From Candidatus Desulfaltia sp. (GTDB taxonomy: Bacteria > Desulfobacterota > Desulfobacteria > Desulfobacterales > ETH-SRB1), in the NCBI GenBank assembly GCA_030656555.1, contig JAUSPN010000015.1, positions 32,396 through 96,395 on the forward strand: 64,000 bases of DNA, in the 5' to 3' direction. Shown piece after piece: positions 5,265 through 53,283 of the stretch. The notes beneath the pieces are model-generated. The model was not told the origin of the DNA and did not search any database. It saw only the letters and a list, made by a program, of their open reading frames with translations. Each line of letters opens with the position of its first letter. The stretch's first letter is position 1. Position numbers and translations under genes: made by a program.

Positions 5265-5274
5265 AGACCTTTGC

Positions 5275-5369
5275 AAAACTATCGTTATTTGTCATTTCGA
5301 CCAAAGGGAGAAATCTTAACAGACTTGAATCATTAAGATTTCTCGTCGTTAATACTCCTCGAAATGACA
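5275..5369. repeat. Dispersed inverted repeat GTCATTTCGA...TCGAAATGAC
   Basis: 5' half near-identical to 1978-2042; inverted arms gtcatttcga / tcgaaatgac. Confidence 0.75.
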
Positions 5370-20102: not shown

Positions 20103-20397
20103 TTTTCAAAGGCCTATTGTCGCCAAAGCACAATAAATATTGATAGATATTGACTGTAAGCGCAATATCAAGTGTAATTATAAAATGCAATATTATTTCT
20201 TGGCCCGAAAAGTAGCGATGAAAAAATATGATGGATTTTTCTGCGCTTATCAAATATGTTGACAGGCGCAAATGAACGTTGAAATTGGAAATTTGGCCTT
20301 CATGCTTTTGTGTTGTTCTTCCCAATTTCAAGCCATGAACGGCTATAAATTTATTTTGGCTATTACCGGCTTTAACAAATAAAAAGGGTGCGAAACT

Positions 20398-20520
20398 TGA
20401 ACTGCAACAGCAAGCGCATTCCTCGCAGCTTGCTGCGGGGTTAGCGAGCGAATCAAAAAATTGACAGAATTCCTTACAGTCGAAGATTCCTCGCAGCTTG
20501 CTGCGGGGTTCTTCAATTAA
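20398..20520 (+). repeat. Palindromic element GAACYGCAAMAGCRAGCGCATTCC...TTCAATTMA (copy 1, 23 bp upstream of polA ATG)
   Basis: ttgaactgcaacagcaagcgcattcctcgcagcttgctgcggggttagcgagcgaatc...cttacagtcgaagattcctcgcagcttgctgcggggttcttcaattaa; aligns over its full length with 27567-27690. Confidence 0.9.
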
Positions 20521-27238: not shown

Positions 27239-30200
27239 ATGTCGATTCAGCTATATTTCAGTAACAGGCTTGAGAATCTGGCTGAAAAGTTTGCGTCAAC
27301 AGTTGATCTGGAAAATCAACACAAAAAAGATGTATTTAACGCCCCGCTTGTAATTGTTCCCAATGCCAATCTTGTTAAGTGGCTGCAGCTTATGCTGGCG
27401 CGAAAACGGTCTGTTTGCATGAATATGGATTTTCAGTTTTTAGAGGCAGGTCTGTGGGGTTTGTTAGCTGACCTGGATGACGAAAAATTAAATCCAAAGC
27501 TGCTTAATAATGACTGTTTGCGGATGTTGCTGCTTTACGCGCTGCAAAATCTCGATGAAAACAAAATTGAACCGCAAAAGCGAGCGCATTCCCTGCAGCT
27601 TGCTGCTGGGTTAGCGAGCGAATCTAAAAATGGCAAACTTCCTTACGGTCGAAGATCCGCCGCAGCAAGCTGCGTGGAACTTCAATTCAAACCGATAAAC
27701 CACTATCTCCTTGATCCTGATAATATTAAAAGGCCGGATTACGCCGCAAGGCTCTGGCAGCTTTCAGAAAAATTTGCCGGTTTGTTCCAGGAATATGAAT
27801 TTCATCGCTGGGACATGATTCAGAAATGGCGTCAGAATAAAATTCCGCTTCAAGGCATGGAACTGTGCCAGCAAAAGTTATATCTGCTGGCAGATGAATT
27901 GCGGAATAAACTTTTCCATAATTCCGGAACCCTCTATCTCTCAATAATGGAATATGCAGACAGAGTTCTTGCCGGGGAAAGTGAAGAAAAAACAGTTGCC
28001 GGTAATGCAAAAGATTTTGTGCATTTTTTCGGGCTGTCCCAGATTTCCCCTTTCCATCTTCAGCTTATCGGGCGGCTGAGCAGATATTATGAGATATTTA
28101 TATATGCCTTTAATCCATCCCGTGAGTTCTGGGAAGATATCAAAACCCCCCAGGAAAAAAGATGGATTGAAAAAAAAGGAGTAAAAAAACTTCAAATCAC
28201 CCATGCAGAGCTGCACCAGGGGGAGCTTTCAGGCCATGATGATTCAGGCCGGGATGATAATGAGCTTTTATCGTTATGGGGAAAACCGGGGCGGGAAAGC
28301 ATCCGGCTTTTATGTGAGCTGACAGATTATGATTTTAATGCCTGCTTTGCAAAAGAAAAAGCCCCTGCAACGGTGCTGCAGAGAATCCAAAGCGATATCC
28401 TGACCCTTCCTTCTGAAAAAGCCGGGCTAAAGCAGGACAGGTCTTTGCAAATTGTCGCCTGTCCCGGCATATACAGGGAAGTTGAGACAGTATATAACAG
28501 CATCTTATATAACCTTGAGCAGGATAACCGGTTGCAGTTAACCGACATCGCAATCCTTGTGCCGGACATATCAAAATACAAGTTTGTTTTTGATTCTGTT
28601 TTTAATCGATCTCCAAAATCTATCTCATATAATCTTGTTGATTCACATGCTGATATAGAAAGCATATTCGGCCGCGGGGTTTTGTCGATCTTTGATTTTG
28701 CAACAGGAAGATTTTCACGCAAAGAGGTTTTTGATCTGATTTTGAATCCCTGTTTTATGAGTAAGTGGAAGATAGGACTTGAGGAAATAAGGATGTGGGC
28801 ATGCTGGGCTCACGAATTAAACATATTTCATGACTTTGACCAAATATCAAAAAAGAAAAAAGGTTATTGTGAAAGCCCTTATTACACATGGAAACAGGGG
28901 CTCCAGAGACTGCGCCTGTCAAGAATTATGTCAAATCCTGCGGAATCGGAAAGAGATGTTTCAGACAGCTTTAAACACTTTCAGGACATTGTTCCATATT
29001 TTGATTTAAACTCAGGCAATGTTGATCTAATGGAAAAATTCTGCATTGTAATTGAAAAGCTGCATAATGTTGCTCTTAACTTGAATGATGCCATGCTGTC
29101 GGGGAAGGAGTGGAAGAGCCGGTTTTTAGAAGCATGTGATGAGCTGCTGGATATACCTTCGGATTTTGCAGGAGAAACAAAAGTTAAACATTCTCTTATT
29201 AATGCGCTGGACAACCTGCAATTTTATGATGCTGTTAGTAAAGATGATAAAGACTCAAAGCTTGATATAGAGGTAATTAAAGAATTTATTAAATCCAGCT
29301 TAAGCTCAATATCAGGAGGTTATGGCGATTATTTGACCGGCGGGGTTACAATCTCCGCAATGCAGCCGATGCGCCCCATACCTTTTAAGATAGTTTATGT
29401 ATTGGGGATGGAAGAAGGCTCATTCCCAGGAAAAGCGGAAAGCTCATCACTGGATCTCAGGCTGCTTAAAAGGCGGATAGGCGATATCAGCCTGCCGGAA
29501 CGCAATTGTTATATTTTCCTTGAAATGCTGCTTTCCACACGTGACAAGCTGTATATCAGCTATATTTCAAAGGATCTGCAAAAGGACCGCATTCTTCAGC
29601 CATGCTCGGTGGTCAATCAATTACGCAGGCATGTTGAGAGTAAAATCTTGCCGGACGCACAGGTGTTTCAGGTTGCGGAAATTCCTTTAAAAGGCAGCAG
29701 TAACAGATACCTTGACAAAGAGAGTATAAATGACTGCTTTGATGTGATGGTGAACTATTCAATGGCTGACAGGATAGCGTATTACAGGGAAAATAATTTA
29801 TGGGATAAGGTTAAGGAAAAGGCTTTAAAAAATGACTTAAACAATGTTGCGGCATTTTATCCTGATCTTAAACATGAGATCGAGGCTGCTGAAGATGAGG
29901 ACATAACTCCTGAAAAAATTACTTTAAAACAGTTGAAAAGCTATTTGCTTGATCCGGTAAACCAGAGCGTGAAACTGCATCTTGGTATTTTTGATGAAGA
30001 AAAAGACATAGAGGAAATTGCCGTCAGGGAAGATGAACCTTTTTATTCGGAATTTCCAATAGATTATAATTTAAAAGTTGAGACATTAAATTTGTGGGTG
30101 GATTCAATGTTTTCTGTTAAAAACATAAAGCAGGGGACACAAAAACCGGAAGATCTTTTTGAAAATGTTTATGATAATTTTCAGCGTCAAAGCAAAACAC

Positions 30201-30979
30201 CGGAAGGGCTGTTTGCTTTAATAGATAAAAGCGAGCTTGGAAATGATGTATCTTTAAGATGCGCGACCCTGTCACCGGTTCTAAAGCAGATGGAGTCTGC
30301 AAAGAATCTGTACGGATCTGTTATTATTGGAGACCAGCTTGATAATTACAACGCTCGGGCAAACAGACTTTGCGTTAAGCATTTTAAGCCGCTTGCAATG
30401 ACGATTAACCGTATAAACAAAGCGGATGAAATTATTTCCCGCGCACTTGAACTTCACGGCCAGATTCCGTGGACGTGGAAGGACCAGGATAATGGATGGC
30501 ATTCGCTGATATTGACTGGAGCGGAAAACAGGCCGAAAAAAGATCCGGATAAATATGTTCTACAGCCGCTTTTATTTTACATGTGCTGCATGGCAGGTCA
30601 GGAAACCTCGGATTGGATAGGAAACAGCAGCATAACTTTTCACATCGCATATAAAGAGGATATTAAAACCTGGTCATATCAAATCAGCAAAAAAAGCTGT
30701 ATAAATTACCTTGAGCAGCTACTGGCCGATTATCTCAGCCAGAAGGATCTAAAATGGCTGCCGTTTAAATCTGCGACTTCAGGAGATGTCAAGCCTCATA
30801 CAATCATGGAAGATAAGATTACCGAGGACATTAAAACAGATTTTCAAATTCAGCTTGCAGAGGCACTTTCAAAGGATGACGCTGATCTAATCAAACTTGC
30901 AAAACCAGAAATTCCATCAGATGCCTTTGACAAGGCAAGGCAGCGCTTTAAAATCTTTTTTAACAACATCGACAGGTAA
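27239..30979 (+). CDS. recC: Exodeoxyribonuclease V gamma subunit RecC, containing an in-frame palindromic-repeat insertion
   Basis: IQLYFSNRLENLAEKFA...APLVIVPNANLVKWLQLMLARKRSVCMNMDFQFLEAGLW...GGVTISAMQPMRPIPFKIVYVLGMEEGSFPG; upstream of recB and recD. Confidence 0.95.
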   Translation: MSIQLYFSNRLENLAEKFASTVDLENQHKKDVFNAPLVIVPNANLVKWLQLMLARKRSVCMNMDFQFLEAGLWGLLADLDDEKLNPKLLNNDCLRMLLLYALQNLDENKIEPQKRAHSLQLAAGLASESKNGKLPYGRRSAAASCVELQFKPINHYLLDPDNIKRPDYAARLWQLSEKFAGLFQEYEFHRWDMIQKWRQNKIPLQGMELCQQKLYLLADELRNKLFHNSGTLYLSIMEYADRVLAGESEEKTVAGNAKDFVHFFGLSQISPFHLQLIGRLSRYYEIFIYAFNPSREFWEDIKTPQEKRWIEKKGVKKLQITHAELHQGELSGHDDSGRDDNELLSLWGKPGRESIRLLCELTDYDFNACFAKEKAPATVLQRIQSDILTLPSEKAGLKQDRSLQIVACPGIYREVETVYNSILYNLEQDNRLQLTDIAILVPDISKYKFVFDSVFNRSPKSISYNLVDSHADIESIFGRGVLSIFDFATGRFSRKEVFDLILNPCFMSKWKIGLEEIRMWACWAHELNIFHDFDQISKKKKGYCESPYYTWKQGLQRLRLSRIMSNPAESERDVSDSFKHFQDIVPYFDLNSGNVDLMEKFCIVIEKLHNVALNLNDAMLSGKEWKSRFLEACDELLDIPSDFAGETKVKHSLINALDNLQFYDAVSKDDKDSKLDIEVIKEFIKSSLSSISGGYGDYLTGGVTISAMQPMRPIPFKIVYVLGMEEGSFPGKAESSSLDLRLLKRRIGDISLPERNCYIFLEMLLSTRDKLYISYISKDLQKDRILQPCSVVNQLRRHVESKILPDAQVFQVAEIPLKGSSNRYLDKESINDCFDVMVNYSMADRIAYYRENNLWDKVKEKALKNDLNNVAAFYPDLKHEIEAAEDEDITPEKITLKQLKSYLLDPVNQSVKLHLGIFDEEKDIEEIAVREDEPFYSEFPIDYNLKVETLNLWVDSMFSVKNIKQGTQKPEDLFENVYDNFQRQSKTPEGLFALIDKSELGNDVSLRCATLSPVLKQMESAKNLYGSVIIGDQLDNYNARANRLCVKHFKPLAMTINRINKADEIISRALELHGQIPWTWKDQDNGWHSLILTGAENRPKKDPDKYVLQPLLFYMCCMAGQETSDWIGNSSITFHIAYKEDIKTWSYQISKKSCINYLEQLLADYLSQKDLKWLPFKSATSGDVKPHTIMEDKITEDIKTDFQIQLAEALSKDDADLIKLAKPEIPSDAFDKARQRFKIFFNNIDR
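27567..27690 (+). repeat. Palindromic element inside recC (copy 2, in frame)
   Basis: ttgaaccgcaaaagcgagcgcattccctgcagcttgctgctgggttagcgagcgaatctaaaaatggcaaacttccttacggtcgaagatccgccgcagcaagctgcgtggaacttcaattcaa; aligns to 20398-20520. Confidence 0.9.
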
Positions 30980-30983
30980 CTGA

Positions 30984-33900
30984 ATGCCTTTACAAACCGT
31001 TCATGACTGCAAACAGGTTGACCTTAAAAAGCACGGGCTTATAGAAGCGTCCGCCGGCACAGGCAAGACCTATATAATTGAGAATCTGGTGGTGCGGCTT
31101 TTAAAAGAAGACAGCGAGATCGCCCTGGAAAATATTCTTCTGGTTACCTTTACGGAAAAAGCTACATGTGAATTAAAGATCCGCATACGTGAGAAAATTG
31201 AAAAGGAATTAAAAGACGCGGATGATCCCGGTGTTGCTAAAAGGTTAAGAGATTCACTGGATGCATTTGATAAAGCAGCCATCTTTACGATTCACGGTTT
31301 TTGCCGGACTGTTTTAAGCGATTTTGCCTTTGAAAACAGCGTTCTTTTTAAAAGCGAACTAATCAATGACACACCTGTTTTTGAAACAAAGCTCAAGGAG
31401 CAGATGCGAAAAGCCTGGCCTGAAAAATATGGAGAAGATTTGCCTGAAATTCTGGAGGGCTCGGGTTTTAGTTCAAAAAAGGAAGGGGGAAAGTTTACCG
31501 ATACAGTGCTTGCGATAGCCGGAAAAACATTTCGCAAAAATGCGGGCGATCTGCTTTTGCCGGATATAAGAGGCAAAAGTTTTAAGCAGATTCAAAATGA
31601 AATAAAGGGGCTGGTTATAGAGTTAAAAACCCTGACAGGCACGCAGCAATGTTTTTCAGGGCAATTTGAAAAATTAAACATAAATGCTTCAACAAAAAAA
31701 TCTTTACTAAATAAAATAGTAACTCCTCTTGAAAATTATCTGAGCAGTATTGATGACAAAAATATTGATATTGCCGGCCTGCAAACGCTGATTTCTCAAA
31801 TTCAAGGCGCAAAATCCAGCGAAAGACAAGGCATTCAATGCCTTGTCTTGGACAAATGGTTAAAAGTTGGTGCTAACCCGGAAGTTTGTCCCAATTTGCA
31901 GGATATAGTTTCCGTATTGCAAAAAATAGAAGAAACCTCGGCCATTTTAAAACAGATTCTTGCGATTGAAACAATCCATCAGCTTCAAAAAGAGGTAAGC
32001 CGGACAAAGGCGGAAAAAGGCTGGATCAGTTTTGATGATATGATTAACCTTGTTGAACAGGCCCTGTATAATGATGATTCAGCCCATTTGCTCAAAATGC
32101 TCAGACATAAATATAAAGTTGCATTTGTTGATGAATTCCAGGACACGGATACTGTTCAATGGAAGATTTTCAGGAAAATATTCTTAGAAAGTCAAAATCC
32201 GGACACCAAAGTAAATCCCGGAAACAGCCTGTTTCTTGTCGGCGATCCAAAACAGGCTATCTATTCATTTCGCGGGGCAGATGTTTTTGCCTATCTGGAT
32301 GCGAAAAACGAAATAGAAGAATTGTCAAAACACCAGAAAGCCAATTTATATTCTTTGGATATAAACTGGCGCTCACAGCCTGAACTAATCAATGCGTTTA
32401 ACAGCCTGTTTGGCAGAAAGGAATGGTTTAAGCCCGGAAACCAGGCAGGCAAATTTGATATATGTTATCAGGATGCGACTTATCCGGCGGAAAAGGACAA
32501 CCTGACATTATTAAGTTCAGACGAGTCTAAGCGCGGTGTGCTGAACATCGTGGATTTCAGCGATGCATTATCTCATCTCAGCCTTGCCAGAGTGCAACTT
32601 GCAAAGTTTATTGCCGAAGAAATCCAGCATCTAATTGGCTACGGCAATATCAAACTGATTCAAAAAGGGAAAGAAGAAAAGAGGCTTGGTTTTGGCGATA
32701 TCTGCATCCTTGTTCGCGCTAAATCAGATGTGCCTTTAATAGAAACAGAGCTTTCCAGCCTTGCAATCCCATATACATATTATAAAAAACCCGGTCTTTT
32801 CCAATCTGATGAAGCCTTTTATTTAAGCATGATTTTTCACGCAATCCTGAATCCTGCGAGCAGCACGGATGTAAAAAGGGCGTTTTTAACCCCTTTTTTT
32901 GAATTTAAACCGGCTGATTTGAATGCTTATGAAAAGTTGCCTCATTCGCATCCATTAAAACAAATGCTTTTCAAATGGAATGAATATGCCTTGTCACGCG
33001 ATTTAAGTCTTCTTTTCCAGTCACTGATTAATGATTCAGGTTTGCTTTTTCGCGAGGCTGAAAAAGTTTCCTGGGAAAGGGAGTACACAAATTACCGGCA
33101 AATATTTGAGTATCTGGAACAAACAGCCTATCTGAAAAATATGGATTTCAGGCAGCTGACCTCGTTACTTGATGGTTACAGAAAAGATACGGTTCGCGCT
33201 GATGAGGATGCTGATATTCATCAAATTGAAACCGAGGAGGAAAAGGTCCGGATAATGACCATGCATGTCAGCAAGGGGCTTCAATTTCCAATAGTTTTTG
33301 TTGCCGGTGGATTGACTCAAAGATCTGCTGGTTCTGATAATTGTTATATATATCACAAGATCGTGGAAGAAAATGACCTGCCTAAGGCAATTAAGACAAT
33401 CGATCTTTTAATTCAAAAAGGACAAAGCGGGGAGAAAAAACATCTTCTTGAAAAAACAGATGAAGACAAACGTCTTTATTATGTTGCTTCCACCAGGGCT
33501 GAGCATAAACTTTATCTGCCATATTATCCGAACCCTAAAAAACATCAATGGGTTGGGCCGGTATGCAGCCTGCTTTCTCCTGCCATAGAAAAGGCTTTCC
33601 CCAAAAATGATGAAAATAAAAATATTTTATGGCTTACGCCGGATGATCATTGTTTCGCAGATGATAAAATAAAGCCGGATAATCAACGATATCTTTCTGA
33701 AACACAGATAAAAGATCAAGCAGATCTTTTTCCTCACACAAGAAATTACAGGCATAAAAAAATCAGGCTGGAGTCTTTTACAAGTCTGCACGATAAAGTT
33801 TCCAACATGGATAAAGGAGGCGAGCAAACAACAGGGTTTCAACTTGCAGATGAAAAATCCAAAGAGGATGATGAAAGCTTTGGTTTGCAAAAAATAGATA

Positions 33901-34637
33901 TTGCGCCTGCCGACATAATACCTGATGAAATGCCCGGCGGAACCGAGATAGGGTCTATGTTTCATAACATATTAGAGAATATTGATTTTACGCATGCTGT
34001 TAAAAAAATGGACTTGGCGCAGGATAAAGTTCGCTCTTTGCTGGATGATCCTGAAACCGGAGATATTATTTTGAAACAGATGGATATGTACCGCGTAGAG
34101 GAGCGCTGGGCATATAACATCTGCCGGATTATAAAAAATACCCTTACAACTCCCATAAGCATTGTTGGCGATCAATTTATTCTTGGCAGGATCGGGAAAG
34201 CGGATCGGCTTCATGAAGTGGAGTTTATCTATCCTTTTGCGCTGCCAGATGGTAAGGATGAAACAATTCCTGATTGCGCGGCTGAAAACGGGTTTATAAG
34301 AGGCTCTGTGGACATGGTTTTCCGGTACAATAATAAATTTTATATAGCGGACTGGAAATCAAACTATCTTGAAAACGGCTATGACCAGGATTCCATGGCA
34401 ATTAACATGAACAGCGTGGGTTATGATCTCCAATACAAGTTATACACCATTGCAGTTTTGCGCTGGCTAAAGCAAAGCTTAAGCAACAGATTTGATCCTG
34501 TAAAAGATTTTGGCGGAATATTTTATTTTTATTTGCGTGGCATGGGAACAGGAAAAGGCAATGGTATCTTTTACATTCCTGCGGCTCAATTAGGAGATTT
34601 GGAAAGGATGGAAGAGGAAGTTGTAAAAGATGTATGA
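30984..34637 (+). CDS. recB: Exodeoxyribonuclease V beta subunit RecB
   Basis: GLIEASAGTGKTYIIENLVVRLL...FVDEFQDTDTVQWKIF...LVGDPKQAIYSFRGADVFAYL...GSVDMVFRYNNKFYIADWKSNYL. Confidence 0.96.
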   Translation: MPLQTVHDCKQVDLKKHGLIEASAGTGKTYIIENLVVRLLKEDSEIALENILLVTFTEKATCELKIRIREKIEKELKDADDPGVAKRLRDSLDAFDKAAIFTIHGFCRTVLSDFAFENSVLFKSELINDTPVFETKLKEQMRKAWPEKYGEDLPEILEGSGFSSKKEGGKFTDTVLAIAGKTFRKNAGDLLLPDIRGKSFKQIQNEIKGLVIELKTLTGTQQCFSGQFEKLNINASTKKSLLNKIVTPLENYLSSIDDKNIDIAGLQTLISQIQGAKSSERQGIQCLVLDKWLKVGANPEVCPNLQDIVSVLQKIEETSAILKQILAIETIHQLQKEVSRTKAEKGWISFDDMINLVEQALYNDDSAHLLKMLRHKYKVAFVDEFQDTDTVQWKIFRKIFLESQNPDTKVNPGNSLFLVGDPKQAIYSFRGADVFAYLDAKNEIEELSKHQKANLYSLDINWRSQPELINAFNSLFGRKEWFKPGNQAGKFDICYQDATYPAEKDNLTLLSSDESKRGVLNIVDFSDALSHLSLARVQLAKFIAEEIQHLIGYGNIKLIQKGKEEKRLGFGDICILVRAKSDVPLIETELSSLAIPYTYYKKPGLFQSDEAFYLSMIFHAILNPASSTDVKRAFLTPFFEFKPADLNAYEKLPHSHPLKQMLFKWNEYALSRDLSLLFQSLINDSGLLFREAEKVSWEREYTNYRQIFEYLEQTAYLKNMDFRQLTSLLDGYRKDTVRADEDADIHQIETEEEKVRIMTMHVSKGLQFPIVFVAGGLTQRSAGSDNCYIYHKIVEENDLPKAIKTIDLLIQKGQSGEKKHLLEKTDEDKRLYYVASTRAEHKLYLPYYPNPKKHQWVGPVCSLLSPAIEKAFPKNDENKNILWLTPDDHCFADDKIKPDNQRYLSETQIKDQADLFPHTRNYRHKKIRLESFTSLHDKVSNMDKGGEQTTGFQLADEKSKEDDESFGLQKIDIAPADIIPDEMPGGTEIGSMFHNILENIDFTHAVKKMDLAQDKVRSLLDDPETGDIILKQMDMYRVEERWAYNICRIIKNTLTTPISIVGDQFILGRIGKADRLHEVEFIYPFALPDGKDETIPDCAAENGFIRGSVDMVFRYNNKFYIADWKSNYLENGYDQDSMAINMNSVGYDLQYKLYTIAVLRWLKQSLSNRFDPVKDFGGIFYFYLRGMGTGKGNGIFYIPAAQLGDLERMEEEVVKDV

Positions 34638-36513
34638 ATCTTTTGACGATAGTGAGCTTTCTGCGCTTGATTTCATGACCATCAGAGATCTTTGCGAATT
34701 AGGCGGTTATCAAAACGACTTGCCTCTTTCTGCGGTTTTGACGGCCATGTTTTCTGCTTTACAGGAGGGCAGTCTCTGCCTGAATATAGATAAAGATTCT
34801 TTGTCTGATAAACTGCAACTCTTTATGGAAAGCAAAAAAGCAAAACAGATTTCCGCTCAATTTTTATCCAATTTTGCAGAAAACAGATATAATAATCTCA
34901 TTGCAAAAAACATTGATACCTACCTGCCACTTATTTCACATGAGTCCAAAGAGAAAAAACTTCTTTATTTCCAAAAGTTCTTTTTTCATGAAACCAGACT
35001 TAAGCACAGGCTCAAGGCTTTTTTGCAGGCAGATGAACCCTGTAAATTATCCGGCGAAAAGGAAAATGAGATTTTAAAGGAGATATTCTCCGACAACCAT
35101 GCCATCCGTATTTCAAAACAAGGAGCGCCGGTTGAAAAGGATCAAGACCAGGTTAAAGCTCTGAGGCTTGCGCTTGGCTCACAGTTTGCCATTATATCAG
35201 GTGGACCTGGAACCGGTAAAACCTCTGTTATGGTGAATATTCTTCGCTGCTTTGTGCGCGCTGGAATCAAACCGGAACAAATCATACTGGCTGCTCCGAC
35301 CGGCAGGGCGGCGCAAAGGATGACTGAAGCAATTCACACCCAGATTAATTCCATCAAAAATCCATGTGCCGAGGATATTGAACTGTTAAATCTTACAGGG
35401 AGCACGCTGCACAGAATATTGCGATATAAAACCAGTTCTCATGACTTCCATTACAGGGATACAAATCCCTTGCCCGCATCGGTTGTTATTGTCGATGAAG
35501 TTTCGATGGTAGATGTCGTGATGATGGAAAGATTTTTGCGCGCAATAGATCCCGCAAAAACAAGGCTTGTTTTATTAGGAGATAAAGATCAGCTTCCTTC
35601 GGTTGAGGCTGGAGCGGTTTTTGCGGAAATGATTCCTGACGAAACAGAAGAAAATATATTCAAAGACCGGTTAGTAGTTTTAAAAAAGGTTTATCGATCA
35701 GGCGCCAATCTTCTGCATTTGGCAAAACAGATCAACCAGGGCAAATGCCCTGAATACGCGCCGGTTTCTCTTGATTCCGCCTTGTTACTTAAAGAGGATA
35801 GCTGGGCGTTTGTTTTGCCGGACGACAATATAAACAAATGGAAGAAACAGCTCAGGCTGTGGGTTGAGCATCATTATTCAGGCAGGAAAAATAAAGATAA
35901 TAAATCATATAAAGAATTGATCCTTGAAGCTGGTAAGCTTGATGCTGATAGTCTTGCATCTTCAGATGATGAGCAGAATATTCTTGATCAGATTTTCAGC
36001 AAAATTGAAAAGGCAAGGATTTTAACTCTTTTGCGTAAAGGGATTTATGGTTGCTCCTGGATAAACAGCATAATAGCTCAATATTTGAGTTTTGAGCTGG
36101 AGCCTCTGACAAAAATGCGTAATAATATTTTCAGCGGCGCTGTTATCATGATCACTCAAAACGATTATTCAAAAAAACTTTTTAACGGAGATGTCGGCGT
36201 TATAATTAAAAATGTTGATGGGAATTACAGGGTGTTTTTTAAACAATTCGGCTCCTATATCTTTTTTGATATAGATTTTTTGTTGAAATGGGAACCAGGC
36301 TTTGCCGTGACAGTGCACAAAAGTCAGGGGACGGAATTTGATGATGTGCTGCTTGTGCTGCCGGATAATGAAAGCCACAGGTTGTTGACCAGGGAGATAA
36401 TATATACCGGCATTACCAGAGCAAAGAAAAGGGTGATTTTATATGGCATTGAGCCGGCATTTAAAAGCGCTTTGCAAAGAAAAATTGAACGGGAATCAGG
36501 TTTGACATGGTAA
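34630..36513 (+). CDS. recD: Exodeoxyribonuclease V alpha subunit RecD
   Basis: LGSQFAIISGGPGTGKTSVMVNILRCFV...VVIVDEVSMVDVVMMERFL...GFAVTVHKSQGTEFDDVLLVLP...YTGITRAKKRVILYG. Confidence 0.96.
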   Translation: MYESFDDSELSALDFMTIRDLCELGGYQNDLPLSAVLTAMFSALQEGSLCLNIDKDSLSDKLQLFMESKKAKQISAQFLSNFAENRYNNLIAKNIDTYLPLISHESKEKKLLYFQKFFFHETRLKHRLKAFLQADEPCKLSGEKENEILKEIFSDNHAIRISKQGAPVEKDQDQVKALRLALGSQFAIISGGPGTGKTSVMVNILRCFVRAGIKPEQIILAAPTGRAAQRMTEAIHTQINSIKNPCAEDIELLNLTGSTLHRILRYKTSSHDFHYRDTNPLPASVVIVDEVSMVDVVMMERFLRAIDPAKTRLVLLGDKDQLPSVEAGAVFAEMIPDETEENIFKDRLVVLKKVYRSGANLLHLAKQINQGKCPEYAPVSLDSALLLKEDSWAFVLPDDNINKWKKQLRLWVEHHYSGRKNKDNKSYKELILEAGKLDADSLASSDDEQNILDQIFSKIEKARILTLLRKGIYGCSWINSIIAQYLSFELEPLTKMRNNIFSGAVIMITQNDYSKKLFNGDVGVIIKNVDGNYRVFFKQFGSYIFFDIDFLLKWEPGFAVTVHKSQGTEFDDVLLVLPDNESHRLLTREIIYTGITRAKKRVILYGIEPAFKSALQRKIERESGLTW

Positions 36514-36879: not shown

Positions 36880-36957
36880 GTCATTTCGAGTGGAACGAGA
36901 AATCTTTATTCTGCAACCTATTGAAAAGACAAAATTTCTCCCTGCGGTCGAAATGAC
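36880..36957. repeat. Dispersed inverted repeat GTCATTTCGA...TCGAAATGAC (third site)
   Basis: gtcatttcgagtggaacgagaaatctttattctgcaacctattgaaaagacaaaatttctccctgcggtcgaaatgac. Confidence 0.65.
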
Positions 36958-37009
36958 ACATAGCACCTAACGATTAACACGTTTCGTATCATAATGAGGT
37001 ACTTGCAAT

Positions 37010-41583: not shown

Positions 41584-41640
41584 ATGAACCTCAAAAGCGA
41601 GCGCATTCCCCGCTGCTTGCGGCGAGGAGCTTCAATTCAT
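41584..41640 (+). repeat. Palindromic element, short copy (copy 3)
   Basis: tgaacctcaaaagcgagcgcattccccgctgcttgcggcgaggagcttcaattcat; shares both ends with 27567-27690 but lacks the middle. Confidence 0.85.
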
Positions 41641-43112: not shown

Positions 43113-43967
43113 TTATATATATTCGAGGAGTTGGATCAGATCGGTTATTACAATATCTGGAGATAATGTTTTGCATTCCGCAACATCTTTTCTGAGCCTT
43201 AAAGATCTTGTATCTCCTGCAAAAAGGGCTGTGTTAAATCCAGCCTTTTTTGCAGGGTAAATATCGTTTAACATATCATTGCCTATGTAAACGGCTGAGT
43301 TAGCAGGAACATTTAAGCGTTTAAGCTTTTCAAGCGCTGATTGGAACATAAATGGCGATGGTTTTGCGTGTCCGGATTTATATGAAAAGAAGGTTAGATC
43401 AGGATGAAAGCCGAGCTTTTCCATGTTTGAATCCAAGAGCCAGTCGAATAGACAGGGTGTATAGAACTGAGCATTAGAAATAATGCCGAGTAGTACTTGT
43501 GCTTTTTTGCATGCGGAAAGCATCTCTTTAAGATTCGGCATTGGATATACAGGATTTACGATCATTTCAAACATAGCCGCAAATTTTCTGACTGTGACCG
43601 GGTTATTATTTTTTAGAATGCTCATCCAAATGCGGTCTATCTCGACTTCCGGGAAGTCAACCCCCTGTTTTTTTAGTTTTACGTGGTTTTTTTCAATAGC
43701 TGAGAAAAGATCATTCAAAACAGCTTTAGGGGTTTTTCTTATTTTGAATTCAATCAGCAATTGTTTCAGTTTGTATGTTTCTATGTATGCTTCCGAGGCC
43801 TTTCCCTTTGCTATGCTGATGTCGCCGGATCCGCTGATAAATAGTGTGCCGTAAACATCAAAAATCATGCATTTGATCTTTTTTTTTAAATTTCCGCTTT
43901 GGCAAAGTGTGGTTGGAACAGGGGAAAGAGGAACTATATATTGTGATATAAACTCATTATTGAACAT
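43113..43967 (-). CDS. HAD-family hydrolase
   Basis: KKKIKCMIFDVYGTLFISGSGD...LLGIISNAQFYTP...SYKSGHAKPSPFMFQSALEKL...VYIGNDMLNDIYPAKKAGFNTALFAGD. Confidence 0.88.
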   Translation of the reverse strand: MFNNEFISQYIVPLSPVPTTLCQSGNLKKKIKCMIFDVYGTLFISGSGDISIAKGKASEAYIETYKLKQLLIEFKIRKTPKAVLNDLFSAIEKNHVKLKKQGVDFPEVEIDRIWMSILKNNNPVTVRKFAAMFEMIVNPVYPMPNLKEMLSACKKAQVLLGIISNAQFYTPCLFDWLLDSNMEKLGFHPDLTFFSYKSGHAKPSPFMFQSALEKLKRLNVPANSAVYIGNDMLNDIYPAKKAGFNTALFAGDTRSLRLRKDVAECKTLSPDIVITDLIQLLEYI

Positions 43968-45399
43968 AATTGCCCCATTTAAGAAGGCTGAATTTTTGCA
44001 AATTCAAAAATTCTGAAAGGAGAATCTTTTTATCTATCCTTTGTATAACCGAATTTTTGCATACGTTTGAGTAAATCTCAAAAAGCTTTTTCTTATATAT
44101 TGTATTATTATAATTACTGAGCACGGCTTTCATATTGTTTTGTATCAAGTCCTCTTGATTTTTTATTGCTCCTATATATGAAAGATACGGATTAAGGGAC
44201 CTCAGCCTGTTTGCATTCTTTTTATCCGAGAGCACACAGGAGATTATCTGCTTTTGAAATGCTTCGTCCAGCAACCCAAAATCAATATTATTATTTTTTG
44301 TTATTGCAGAGAAACCAGTTTCAATATTTTTATTATCAATTTTGTAATTAAACAAAGAGCAGGTTTTTAAAACAGATGCCATCCATTTTTCGTAAAGATC
44401 TTTTTTGTTAATCCATTTTACAGGAACAAGGAGTTTTGTATAGAGATGATCAAGATTAATTCCGTTTTGTTTGAAATCATAACATATATCCGGAAGCTTT
44501 CTTCCGCAAAGTATTTTTTTAGCTGTCCATGGTTCAAGAAATGAAAAACCGAATCCTTCTGTTATGCTTGTTGTAATAAGAAATTTTGCAGAAAACACAA
44601 GCTGTTTGAAGTCATATTTTAATCCAGCCTCAAACATTATATTGAGCCTGTTTTCTTTTACAAAATCTTTCCATCCATTATGGCTTATAATATCAATCTG
44701 GCTGTTTGGCGGTTGAGTTATGAAAAGAGCCTCATGATTTTTGAAAAACAAAGATAAAAGAATCGCTTCGCCGATATTTTTCCTTCTAATGGCGCGAATC
44801 GGATATAGAACAAAGTTTGTAGTAACATCCCCCCTTATCCCCCCTCGAGACGGGAATGGTGGGGGCGTTAGTTCGAAAGGTTTTATTGTGTTGAAAATCT
44901 TATGCAGACCTTTCTTTTTTAAACCTACTTTAAGCAGCATATCGTAATCGCGAGAATTTATTACCCCGTAATGGCAGTCGGACACATATTCATCCTCATC
45001 AAAGTATGATAATGGACGGCCGTCTTCTGCAAAATCATGAATTTGCAAAAAAAGCCTGATTCCCCTTTTTTGCAGTTCGTGTAAAATTTTTAAAAAAATT
45101 TTATTTTTGGCAAGCAAGGGATTATGAATATGCAGAATGTCGCATCCCTGTTCCCACTTTGAATGGATTGCCTTGATTATTAATTCTGCGACCTTTTTGG
45201 GATTAAATGTTTTTTGGGATGACCTGCCGTAATAAGCAAGCCCAGGGATATGTTTTATATCAGCAGGGAAGGGGGAATCAGGAAGTTCTCCCGTAAGAAC
45301 AAGAATCTCACAATCGTTTTTTACAGCTTCAATTTGTTGCTTTAATACAGTTGTTACCCCGCCGGTTTTAAGATGATAATGAGCAAAGGCTATCTTCAT
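43957..45399 (-). CDS. Glycosyltransferase, GT-B/GT4-like
   Basis: MKIAFAHYHLKTGGVTTVLKQQIEAV...DILHIHNPLLAKNKIFLKILHELQKRGIRLFLQIHDFAEDGRP...ITTSITEGFGFSFLEPWTAKKILCGRKLPD. Confidence 0.8.
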   Translation of the reverse strand: MKIAFAHYHLKTGGVTTVLKQQIEAVKNDCEILVLTGELPDSPFPADIKHIPGLAYYGRSSQKTFNPKKVAELIIKAIHSKWEQGCDILHIHNPLLAKNKIFLKILHELQKRGIRLFLQIHDFAEDGRPLSYFDEDEYVSDCHYGVINSRDYDMLLKVGLKKKGLHKIFNTIKPFELTPPPFPSRGGIRGDVTTNFVLYPIRAIRRKNIGEAILLSLFFKNHEALFITQPPNSQIDIISHNGWKDFVKENRLNIMFEAGLKYDFKQLVFSAKFLITTSITEGFGFSFLEPWTAKKILCGRKLPDICYDFKQNGINLDHLYTKLLVPVKWINKKDLYEKWMASVLKTCSLFNYKIDNKNIETGFSAITKNNNIDFGLLDEAFQKQIISCVLSDKKNANRLRSLNPYLSYIGAIKNQEDLIQNNMKAVLSNYNNTIYKKKLFEIYSNVCKNSVIQRIDKKILLSEFLNLQKFSLLKWGNYVQ

Positions 45400-47269: not shown

Positions 47270-47395
47270 ATATTATATGATCCTTGATAGCTTTGACTTT
47301 TTACGAGTTCATCAATATTTGAAATATATTACAAAAAAGTTAATTAAACTACAGTAATTTTTTTGGTTTTACAAAAGTTTTACATAAGCGGGCAT

Positions 47396-48343
47396 ATGTA
47401 TCAATCAAAGTGGTTTTTTCACCCCATCCTTATTTTAATGCTTTCTGTTGTGGCTCTGGCCATGTCCCTGTTTTTATATATTTACTGGTATATCGAGATA
47501 AGCGCCGGCTTAAAGAAGCTTGTGCTGGAGTTAAGTCTTGATCCCGAACAGGTCCTGGAATCTCAGACATGGGTGGTAATTATGGTGCTTTCGATACTTG
47601 TCGGGATTATCTTGATGGGGATATTTACTATTTTTGTCTATCATCATAAGACATTGCAACTTTACAGGACGCAGCATAACTTTATTAACAATTTTACTCA
47701 TGAACTGAAATCTCCTGTTACTTCTTTAAAACTCTATCTTGAAACATTTGAAAAGCATGAGTTGTCAAGGGAAGATCAGCTCAAATATATAGGTTATATG
47801 ATTCAGGATGTCAGCCGGCTTTTTGATAATATCAGCCTGATCTTAAATCTTTCCGGAATTGAGAGCAAGAGCTATGGAGGGAAGTTTGTGATATTGGATC
47901 TTGTTCAAACAATTGAGCAGTTTTGTAAAAACAACGTTCACCTTTTCAGGGGTTGTGAGGTCAAGATTCATAATCCTTTAGACCGGTCTTTTCTATATCG
48001 TATTAATCCGTCTTTATTTGAAATGCTTTTGATGAACCTTATTGCTAATGCTATCAAATATAACAGGTCTGAGCAATCAATGGTTGATATTTCATTTGCA
48101 ATTAATAAAGGCAAGTTGAATATCCGGTTTGAAGATAACGGTATTGGAATTGAAAAAAGAGAGCTCAAAAAGATTTTCAAAAAATTTTATCGGGTTGATA
48201 GATCGGATAATATATCGCCCAGAGGCAGTGGGCTTGGGCTATATCTGGTACAGAATATAGCCCACATTCATAAGGGAAAGGTAATTGCTGAAAGCAAAGG
48301 AATAGAAAAAGGATCGGCTTTTACCTTAATTTTGCCTTATTGA
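47396..48343 (+). CDS. Two-component sensor histidine kinase (start chosen at MYQSKWFF; ORF track begins 47363)
   Basis: HNFINNFTHELKSPVTSLKLYLETFEKH...LLMNLIANAIKYNR...RFEDNGIGIEKRELKKIFKKFYRVDRSDNISPRGSGLGLYLVQNI. Confidence 0.93.
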   Translation: MYQSKWFFHPILILMLSVVALAMSLFLYIYWYIEISAGLKKLVLELSLDPEQVLESQTWVVIMVLSILVGIILMGIFTIFVYHHKTLQLYRTQHNFINNFTHELKSPVTSLKLYLETFEKHELSREDQLKYIGYMIQDVSRLFDNISLILNLSGIESKSYGGKFVILDLVQTIEQFCKNNVHLFRGCEVKIHNPLDRSFLYRINPSLFEMLLMNLIANAIKYNRSEQSMVDISFAINKGKLNIRFEDNGIGIEKRELKKIFKKFYRVDRSDNISPRGSGLGLYLVQNIAHIHKGKVIAESKGIEKGSAFTLILPY

Positions 48344-48423
48344 ACCGCAAAAACGAGCGCATTCCCCGCTGCTTGTCGGAGCAAAGCGGAAATCCCGTCC
48401 CATCGGGGCTGCGGGGAATGCGA
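48340..48423 (+). repeat. Palindromic element, variant copy (copy 4) abutting the histidine kinase stop codon
   Basis: ttgaaccgcaaaaacgagcgcattccccgctgcttgtcgg...ggggctgcggggaatgcga; arms CGCATTCCCCGC / GCGGGGAATGCG. Confidence 0.85.
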
Positions 48424-48443
48424 TTTATCAGAGATTAGGGATT

Positions 48444-53163: not shown

Positions 53164-53283
53164 GAGTGCCTAAAGTGAACTAAAGTGCCTAAAGTTAATG
53201 AGTCGCTACGCTCCATCTTTTTATATAAAATTGGCAGAATTCTTTAACTTTAGTTCACTTTAGGCACTTTAGCTCACTTCAAA
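53164..53283. repeat. Hairpin repeat of AAAGTGCCTAAAGTGAACT units (copy 2)
   Basis: gagtgcctaaagtgaactaaagtgcctaaagttaa...ttaactttagttcactttaggcactttagctcactt; same unit as 575-811. Confidence 0.8.

Follow-up and report, generated by a model that had tools for sequence, protein, structure and literature searches.

Rickettsia palindromic elements (RPEs; RPE-1 and others, Ogata 2000, 2002) are the closest described counterparts of the repeat reported here, as described in PMC10969869, PMC3767692 and PMC3733652. Rickettsia and Wolbachia provide the best-known examples of long protein-coding palindromes; many insertions there occur in more than one species, which obscures how such elements land and are tolerated. 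The element in recC of the present genome resembles RPEs in being a palindromic, hairpin-forming repeat of 100–150 bp that occurs in spacers as well as in frame in unrelated genes and is open in the host frame. The initial annotation of this DNA had drawn the analogy with RPEs, and the analogy holds for the mode of action, in frame and in both genes and spacers, but not for family membership, the two families being different.

The window, by which we mean the whole stretch of 64,000 nucleotides analysed, contains recC together with recB and recD. The identity of RecC was supported by Pfam (PF04257, E 3.8e-49), by a match to Escherichia coli RecC in the PDB (1w36_C, E 1.1e-51) and by NCBIfam (TIGR01450, E 3e-112, under the curated cut-off, as expected of a divergent member). 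The features of the locus are as follows.

27239 to 30979, + strand: recC (exodeoxyribonuclease V gamma), 1246 residues, ORF unbroken with the insert included
30984 to 34637: recB, directly 3' of recC, ORF intact
34630 to 36513: recD, after recB, ORF intact
27567 to 27571, + strand: target TTGAA abutting the 5' side of the insert, with GAA as the Glu codon of residue 111
27572 to 27685, + strand: element inserted in recC, 114 bp, 38 codons, residues 112–149, PQKRAHSLQLAAGLASESKNGKLPYGRRSAAASCVELQ, without counterpart in the RecC DNA of eight relatives
27587 to 27614, + strand: left palindrome of the recC element, CATTCCCTGCAGCTTGCTGCTGGGTTAG
27654 to 27683, + strand: right palindrome of the recC element, GATCCGCCGCAGCAAGCTGCGTGGAACTTC, with its loop inverted relative to most family members

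An insertion of about 40 residues at positions 110–151 had been proposed; the insertion was confirmed, with its net size and position corrected to the 38 codons listed above. The insert site lies between the parts of RecC that align to E. coli RecC residues 96 and 108. An AlphaFold prediction of RecC residues 1–420, made from the single sequence without an alignment, reached a pLDDT of 35 and was unusable for surface placement. RNA folding of the recC copy gave −46.7 kcal/mol (z −3.8), and the inverted loop of its right palindrome enables the two palindromes to pair as one long mRNA hairpin. The same inversion (GCAA for TTGC) was observed in the ftsX copy of a relative (G009), as if the hairpin loop of the element were able to flip.

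RecC is present in 17 of 17 genomes of the family, and it could be aligned throughout in eight relatives, six of the same genus and two of a sister genus. Hereafter G000 denotes the genome of the window, G009–G016 denote relatives, and C with a number denotes a contig. All eight relatives lack exactly this segment and have colinear flanks, matching residues 1–111 and 148–1245 from adjoining DNA. Comparison of the aligned recC DNA revealed AAAATTGA(A/G)TTCAAACC in most relatives, whereas the window reads AAAATTGAA[114 bp]TTCAAACC. The closest relative, G012, has a RecC that is 95% identical on both sides of the insert site, and the recC insertion was found in one species only. No orthologue carrying the segment was found among the relatives, nor is the similarity between copies confined to low-complexity sequence. 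The eight empty orthologous sites, together with the dispersed family described below, support the proposal in the initial annotation that a mobile palindromic element put an in-frame segment into recC.

The whole genome (2.73 Mb in 107 contigs) was searched for further copies. BLAST and pattern searches combined, which may miss old degenerate copies, yielded 103 family sites, about 94% of them outside genes. BLAST with the recC stretch scored some 40 copies, the best non-self match having an E value of 2.4e-40 and 89% identity over 121 bp. No other copy found is less than 11% diverged from the recC copy, whose peptide has drifted. Patterns for the left and right ends of the element matched at 79 and 47 places, respectively, compared with 0 and 2 for reversed control patterns, and these counts exclude chance and low complexity as explanations. 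The first 39 nt of the recC stretch recur at 20398, 41585 and 48341 of the window. Family members in the window include the following.

20397 to 20520, + strand: intergenic copy upstream of polA, TGA subfamily
41584 to 41635, + strand: one-hairpin 47-bp form, intergenic
48339 to 48425, + strand: shortened copy enclosing a smaller repeat, located where a histidine-kinase-like ORF (47363–48343) has its stop codon

At the last of these, the TGA stop of the histidine-kinase-like ORF is furnished by the TTGAA target. The end-to-end alignment of a recC stretch of about 124 bp with the copy upstream of polA (20397–20520) was correct as annotated, in sequence and in coordinates. It had further been noted that the polA copy carries a TGA where the recC copy stays open. 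This difference is real but does not reflect a loss of TGA from the recC copy, as the family comprises two core subfamilies, GGCAAA (open in the recC frame) and TTGACAG (with TGA). Copies of the open version are common among intergenic sites; the open frame in recC was inherited from its subfamily and thus provides no evidence of repair by selection. Both ends could be delimited in 68 copies. Half of these are long, mostly 114 or 115 bp; the other 34 are short, 21 of them being exactly 47 bp with one hairpin. TGAA precedes 66 of the 68, in 51 of these cases as TTGAA. The element is delimited, according to the empty sites, by CCGC... and ...TTCAA, with a dispersed, two-hairpin long form and nested smaller repeats in some loops. 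Overall, the genome-wide search suggested in the annotation returned a dispersed palindromic family that is mostly intergenic, with a minority of copies in frame in genes.

Six copies of this genome lie in frame in genes, namely recC, a gene for an uncharacterised conserved protein (C3), truA, an amidohydrolase gene, mutL and cysS. The amidohydrolase copy is in reverse orientation and belongs to the TGA subfamily, and the mutL and cysS copies are short relics. The C3 host (C3:39785) had been considered an adenylate cyclase; this was rejected, with no Pfam or NCBIfam match, and the protein is called uncharacterised. In-frame hosts in relatives include an RNase R/II-type protein, RecB, FtsX, LpxK and a PUFA-synthase-like protein in G009, a nitrilase-type protein and a TIGR03960 radical SAM protein in G011, and TrpE, RimP, FlhF and TruA in G012. 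Including these close relatives, about a dozen conserved genes besides recC carry in-frame copies, and orthologues of the interrupted genes are contiguous in other genomes. Two frames, in G000:C91 (lytic transglycosylase-like) and G009:C7, were left out of the genic counts, the element there being N-terminal and probably before the start codon.

DNA alignment resolved exact empty sites for fifteen genic sites, comprising thirteen long insertions and two short relics. The thirteen long insertions span four separately assembled genomes, counting once the TruA site that G000 and G012 have in common; TruA of G012 contains the same insertion as that of G000 plus 24 further nested bp. Nine of the thirteen are exactly 114 bp long and the others measure 90 to 138 bp, all being divisible by three and free of stops. 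Nearly all long genic inserts sit 3' of (T/C)TGAA, with no target duplication longer than 2 bp. One of these empty sites lies in the window.

34282 to 34286, + strand: uninterrupted CTGAA in recB, at which recB of G009 has an in-frame 114-bp insertion

Two further sites were observed in relatives. The 33-bp cysS relic occurs in G000, G012 and G009 and is absent from G014. Judged by RecC, G014 is a closer relative of G000 than G009; this distribution could reflect a precise loss, recombination or an insertion in parallel. On G012:C338, a reverse copy of the TGA subfamily stands in frame directly before Walker A of an NtrC-like regulator (TVLI[..]QGESGTGKE), where its tolerance is hard to imagine and it would hardly be neutral, a case that counts against the passenger reading given below.

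In the window, 89% of TTGAA/TTCAA sites are genic, compared with 6 of the 103 copies in the genome, indicating that harmful insertions have been purged or avoided. Among the other 97 copies, no clear case of a gene split by a frame-breaking copy was found. All 12 long sense-strand genic inserts are in phase with GAA as a Glu codon, a phase that applies to 37% of all genic targets and to 73% of sense-strand ones. Divisibility by three is partly built into the genic set, since genic copies were found via open frames; of the 63 delimited non-genic copies, 20 are divisible by three and 9 of these are also open. The sense peptide of the element is hydrophilic, and the frame on the reverse strand encodes more hydrophobic residues; this may be a reason for the rarity of reverse insertions in genes.

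The repeat family was detected in 29 of 58 relatives and is strongest in the same genus. An exact 26-mer of the element recurs in at least 112 stretches in GTDB genomes, and the matches listed come almost all from Desulfobacterales or Deltaproteobacteria MAGs, whereas RPEs belong to Rickettsia and Wolbachia. G009 is Candidatus Desulfaltia bathyphila, a member of the same genus: a record for this organism includes the identical ftsX locus in full. Searches in other families of the order revealed no long in-gene frame comparable to these, and literature searches returned no report of this repeat family in Desulfobacterota.

Analysis of substitutions in recC outside the insert gave a dN/dS of 0.128 between G000 and G012. 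The G000 branch has 44 synonymous and 24 nonsynonymous changes, a ratio like that of the sister G012 (63 and 33), so that no relaxation of recC is visible, and in the 60 flanking codons on each side of the insert only 2 of 14 differences from G012 are nonsynonymous. RecC outside the insert stays under purifying selection, part of which may predate the insertion. We consider it very probable that a mobile palindrome sits in recC as a tolerated in-frame passenger. An element of about 114 bp with two GC-rich palindromes, small, mobile and presumably non-autonomous, entered recC just 3' of TTGAA in the N-terminal domain of RecC. The insert would owe its retention to a length that is a multiple of three, to the lack of stops in the GAA = Glu phase and to the hydrophilic peptide that it encodes. 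Most likely, RecC is translated through the insert, which would form a 38-residue passenger segment in a protein whose function is under selection, and the effect on RecC would be nearly neutral. The low dN/dS, the location of the site at an alignment gap and the drifted copy fit such a passenger.

Four other readings of the insert were weighed. The segment could have been co-opted to alter RecBCD activity, in line with the mutator or recombination effect that PMC3733652 speculates on for REP-tagged repair genes. Copies in recC, recB and mutL within this genus are consistent with this, as is the tagging of recBCD genes by unrelated palindromes in other phyla (PMC3733652), but copies in the genus are scattered over unrelated functions and the recC insertion is confined to one species, and we regard co-option as improbable. 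An early pseudogene, in which the insertion inactivated recC, is quite improbable: the folding of a conserved domain could suffer from 38 additional residues, and the copy and its peptide have drifted, but the ORF is whole, dN/dS is low, with the same branch ratio as in the sister lineage, the flanking differences from G012 are mostly synonymous, and the recB and recD ORFs are intact. The insert might also be absent from the RecC protein, with the ribosome bypassing the hairpin or the RNA being cut and rejoined. Mobile bypassing elements exist in some yeast mitochondria, and the folding of the recC copy as one long hairpin would suit this reading. Bypass, however, needs neither an open frame nor a length divisible by three, and 15 of 15 genic inserts have both (a comparison weakened by their discovery via open frames); with no clear gene split by a frame-breaking copy found, bypass or splicing appears very improbable. 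A repeat misjoined into recC during assembly is hardly credible, even in a draft genome of 107 contigs in which repeats break assemblies, given that both flanks belong to the same gene, that thirteen long insertions share the target across four separately assembled genomes and that the recC copy differs by at least 11% from every other copy found.

For the tolerated in-frame passenger, a protein acting in trans would have mobilised the element. For this step alone, the mover could plausibly, though far from certainly, be a Y1 HUH transposase of the IS200/IS605 type. This guess draws on the left-edge target pentamer, the lack of a duplication beyond 2 bp and the hairpins near both ends, a combination shared with non-autonomous elements derived from IS200/IS605, which have a short fixed left-edge target. 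The target (T/C)TGAA matches the IS200/IS605 rule of insertion 3' of 4–5 nt; the borders also allow an AA duplication. Among the Y1 transposase loci examined, no gene bordered by the element and no full-length element with the same ends were found; only one locus has a full-length copy, acquired by insertion. In G009, a Y1-transposase gene is flanked by the two arms of an inverted repeat; one arm is interrupted by a copy, and the second holds the site in uninterrupted form with the same border. A DDE-type transposase producing a 2-bp AA duplication competes only with the Y1 guess and seems rather unlikely. The AA duplication is compatible with the insert borders, but the bases before AA (TG, mostly TTG) are conserved in empty sites too, suggesting a recognised target more than a duplication. 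In addition, DDE-type MITEs have terminal inverted repeats of 15–30 bp and a target duplication, whereas the terminal inverted repeats of the element are only about 5 bp and the duplication is at most 2 bp.

Other repeats were seen in passing. A second, unrelated G-rich repeat (LTPPPFPSRGGIRGDV; 44821–44871, − strand) lies in frame in a glycosyltransferase-like ORF (43957–45399); it is present in G013, occurs as three units in G011 and is absent from G009, G012, G014, G015 and G016. The lpxK gene of this genome (G000:C78, about 30600–30710, just upstream of the window) contains an 84-bp in-frame insert of this second repeat type (LTPPPGPPPSKGRVWEGVKKGNSYT), which is absent from G010, G012 and G014; lpxK of G009 has the recC-type element elsewhere. 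In an ATP-grasp ORF on G010:C26, the element peptide occurs together with a third repeat peptide (CHCEERSDVAILSPKDCFAIARNDA). The window also has three other families of dispersed repeats, TTTGTCATTTCGACCGAAGGG (1977–2042, 5274–5339 and 36931–36962), AAGTGAGCTAAAGTGCCTAAAGT (593–788 and 53165–53279) and ACTTTTTACGAGTTCATCAATATT (4302, 36845, 47296 and 62962). We tentatively propose that several unrelated palindromic families (the present one, the TPPPFPSRGG type and the CEERSD type) repeatedly enter conserved Desulfobacterales genes in frame and persist there, perhaps with a precise loss now and then, of which cysS may be an example. If so, protein-coding selfish palindromes would be a general, still active supply of new protein segments in free-living Desulfobacterales.

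Comparison with known systems brings out shared and differing features. Unlike RPEs, it resides in free-living Desulfobacterota and ends in TTGAA/TTCAA. Rickettsia genes share RPE-1 to RPE-3 at similar sites, according to PMC3767692, whereas the insertions here are mostly species-specific with clean empty sites. Neither element peptide has a match in NCBIfam, with no known element domain, and the element has no match in Rfam. Like the GTAG- and CGTC-tagged REPs, including intragenic ones (PMC3733652), the element is palindromic and dispersed, with single and paired hairpins and some copies in frame. REP hosts include recBCD and tRNA pseudouridine synthase genes (PMC3733652), and the element is hosted by recB, recC and truA; that unrelated palindromes would have recBCD and pseudouridine synthase genes as common hosts is notable. 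Unlike REPs, the element has no GTAG or CGTC tetranucleotide at its ends, and its long form measures 114 bp rather than the 20–40 bp of REP units. In contrast to GTAG REPs and REPtrons, no linked RAYT gene was found at the Y1 loci examined. The string 'desulf' is nowhere mentioned in PMC3733652. The element also resembles MITEs with coding frames (PMC10969869), which are small, non-autonomous and able to fuse in frame with host genes. Insertion of this kind is already known from RPEs and from REPs inside genes, with recBCD and pseudouridine synthase genes among the hosts (PMC3733652, PMC3767692, PMC10969869). What is new, as far as the literature searched shows, is the repeat family, its free-living Desulfobacterota lineage and the large number of clean empty sites. 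For thirteen long insertions in conserved genes, including recC and recB of one complex, both interrupted and uninterrupted species are available, and the empty sites reveal the exact borders, target and reading phase, making tolerance and mobilisation testable in free-living bacteria.
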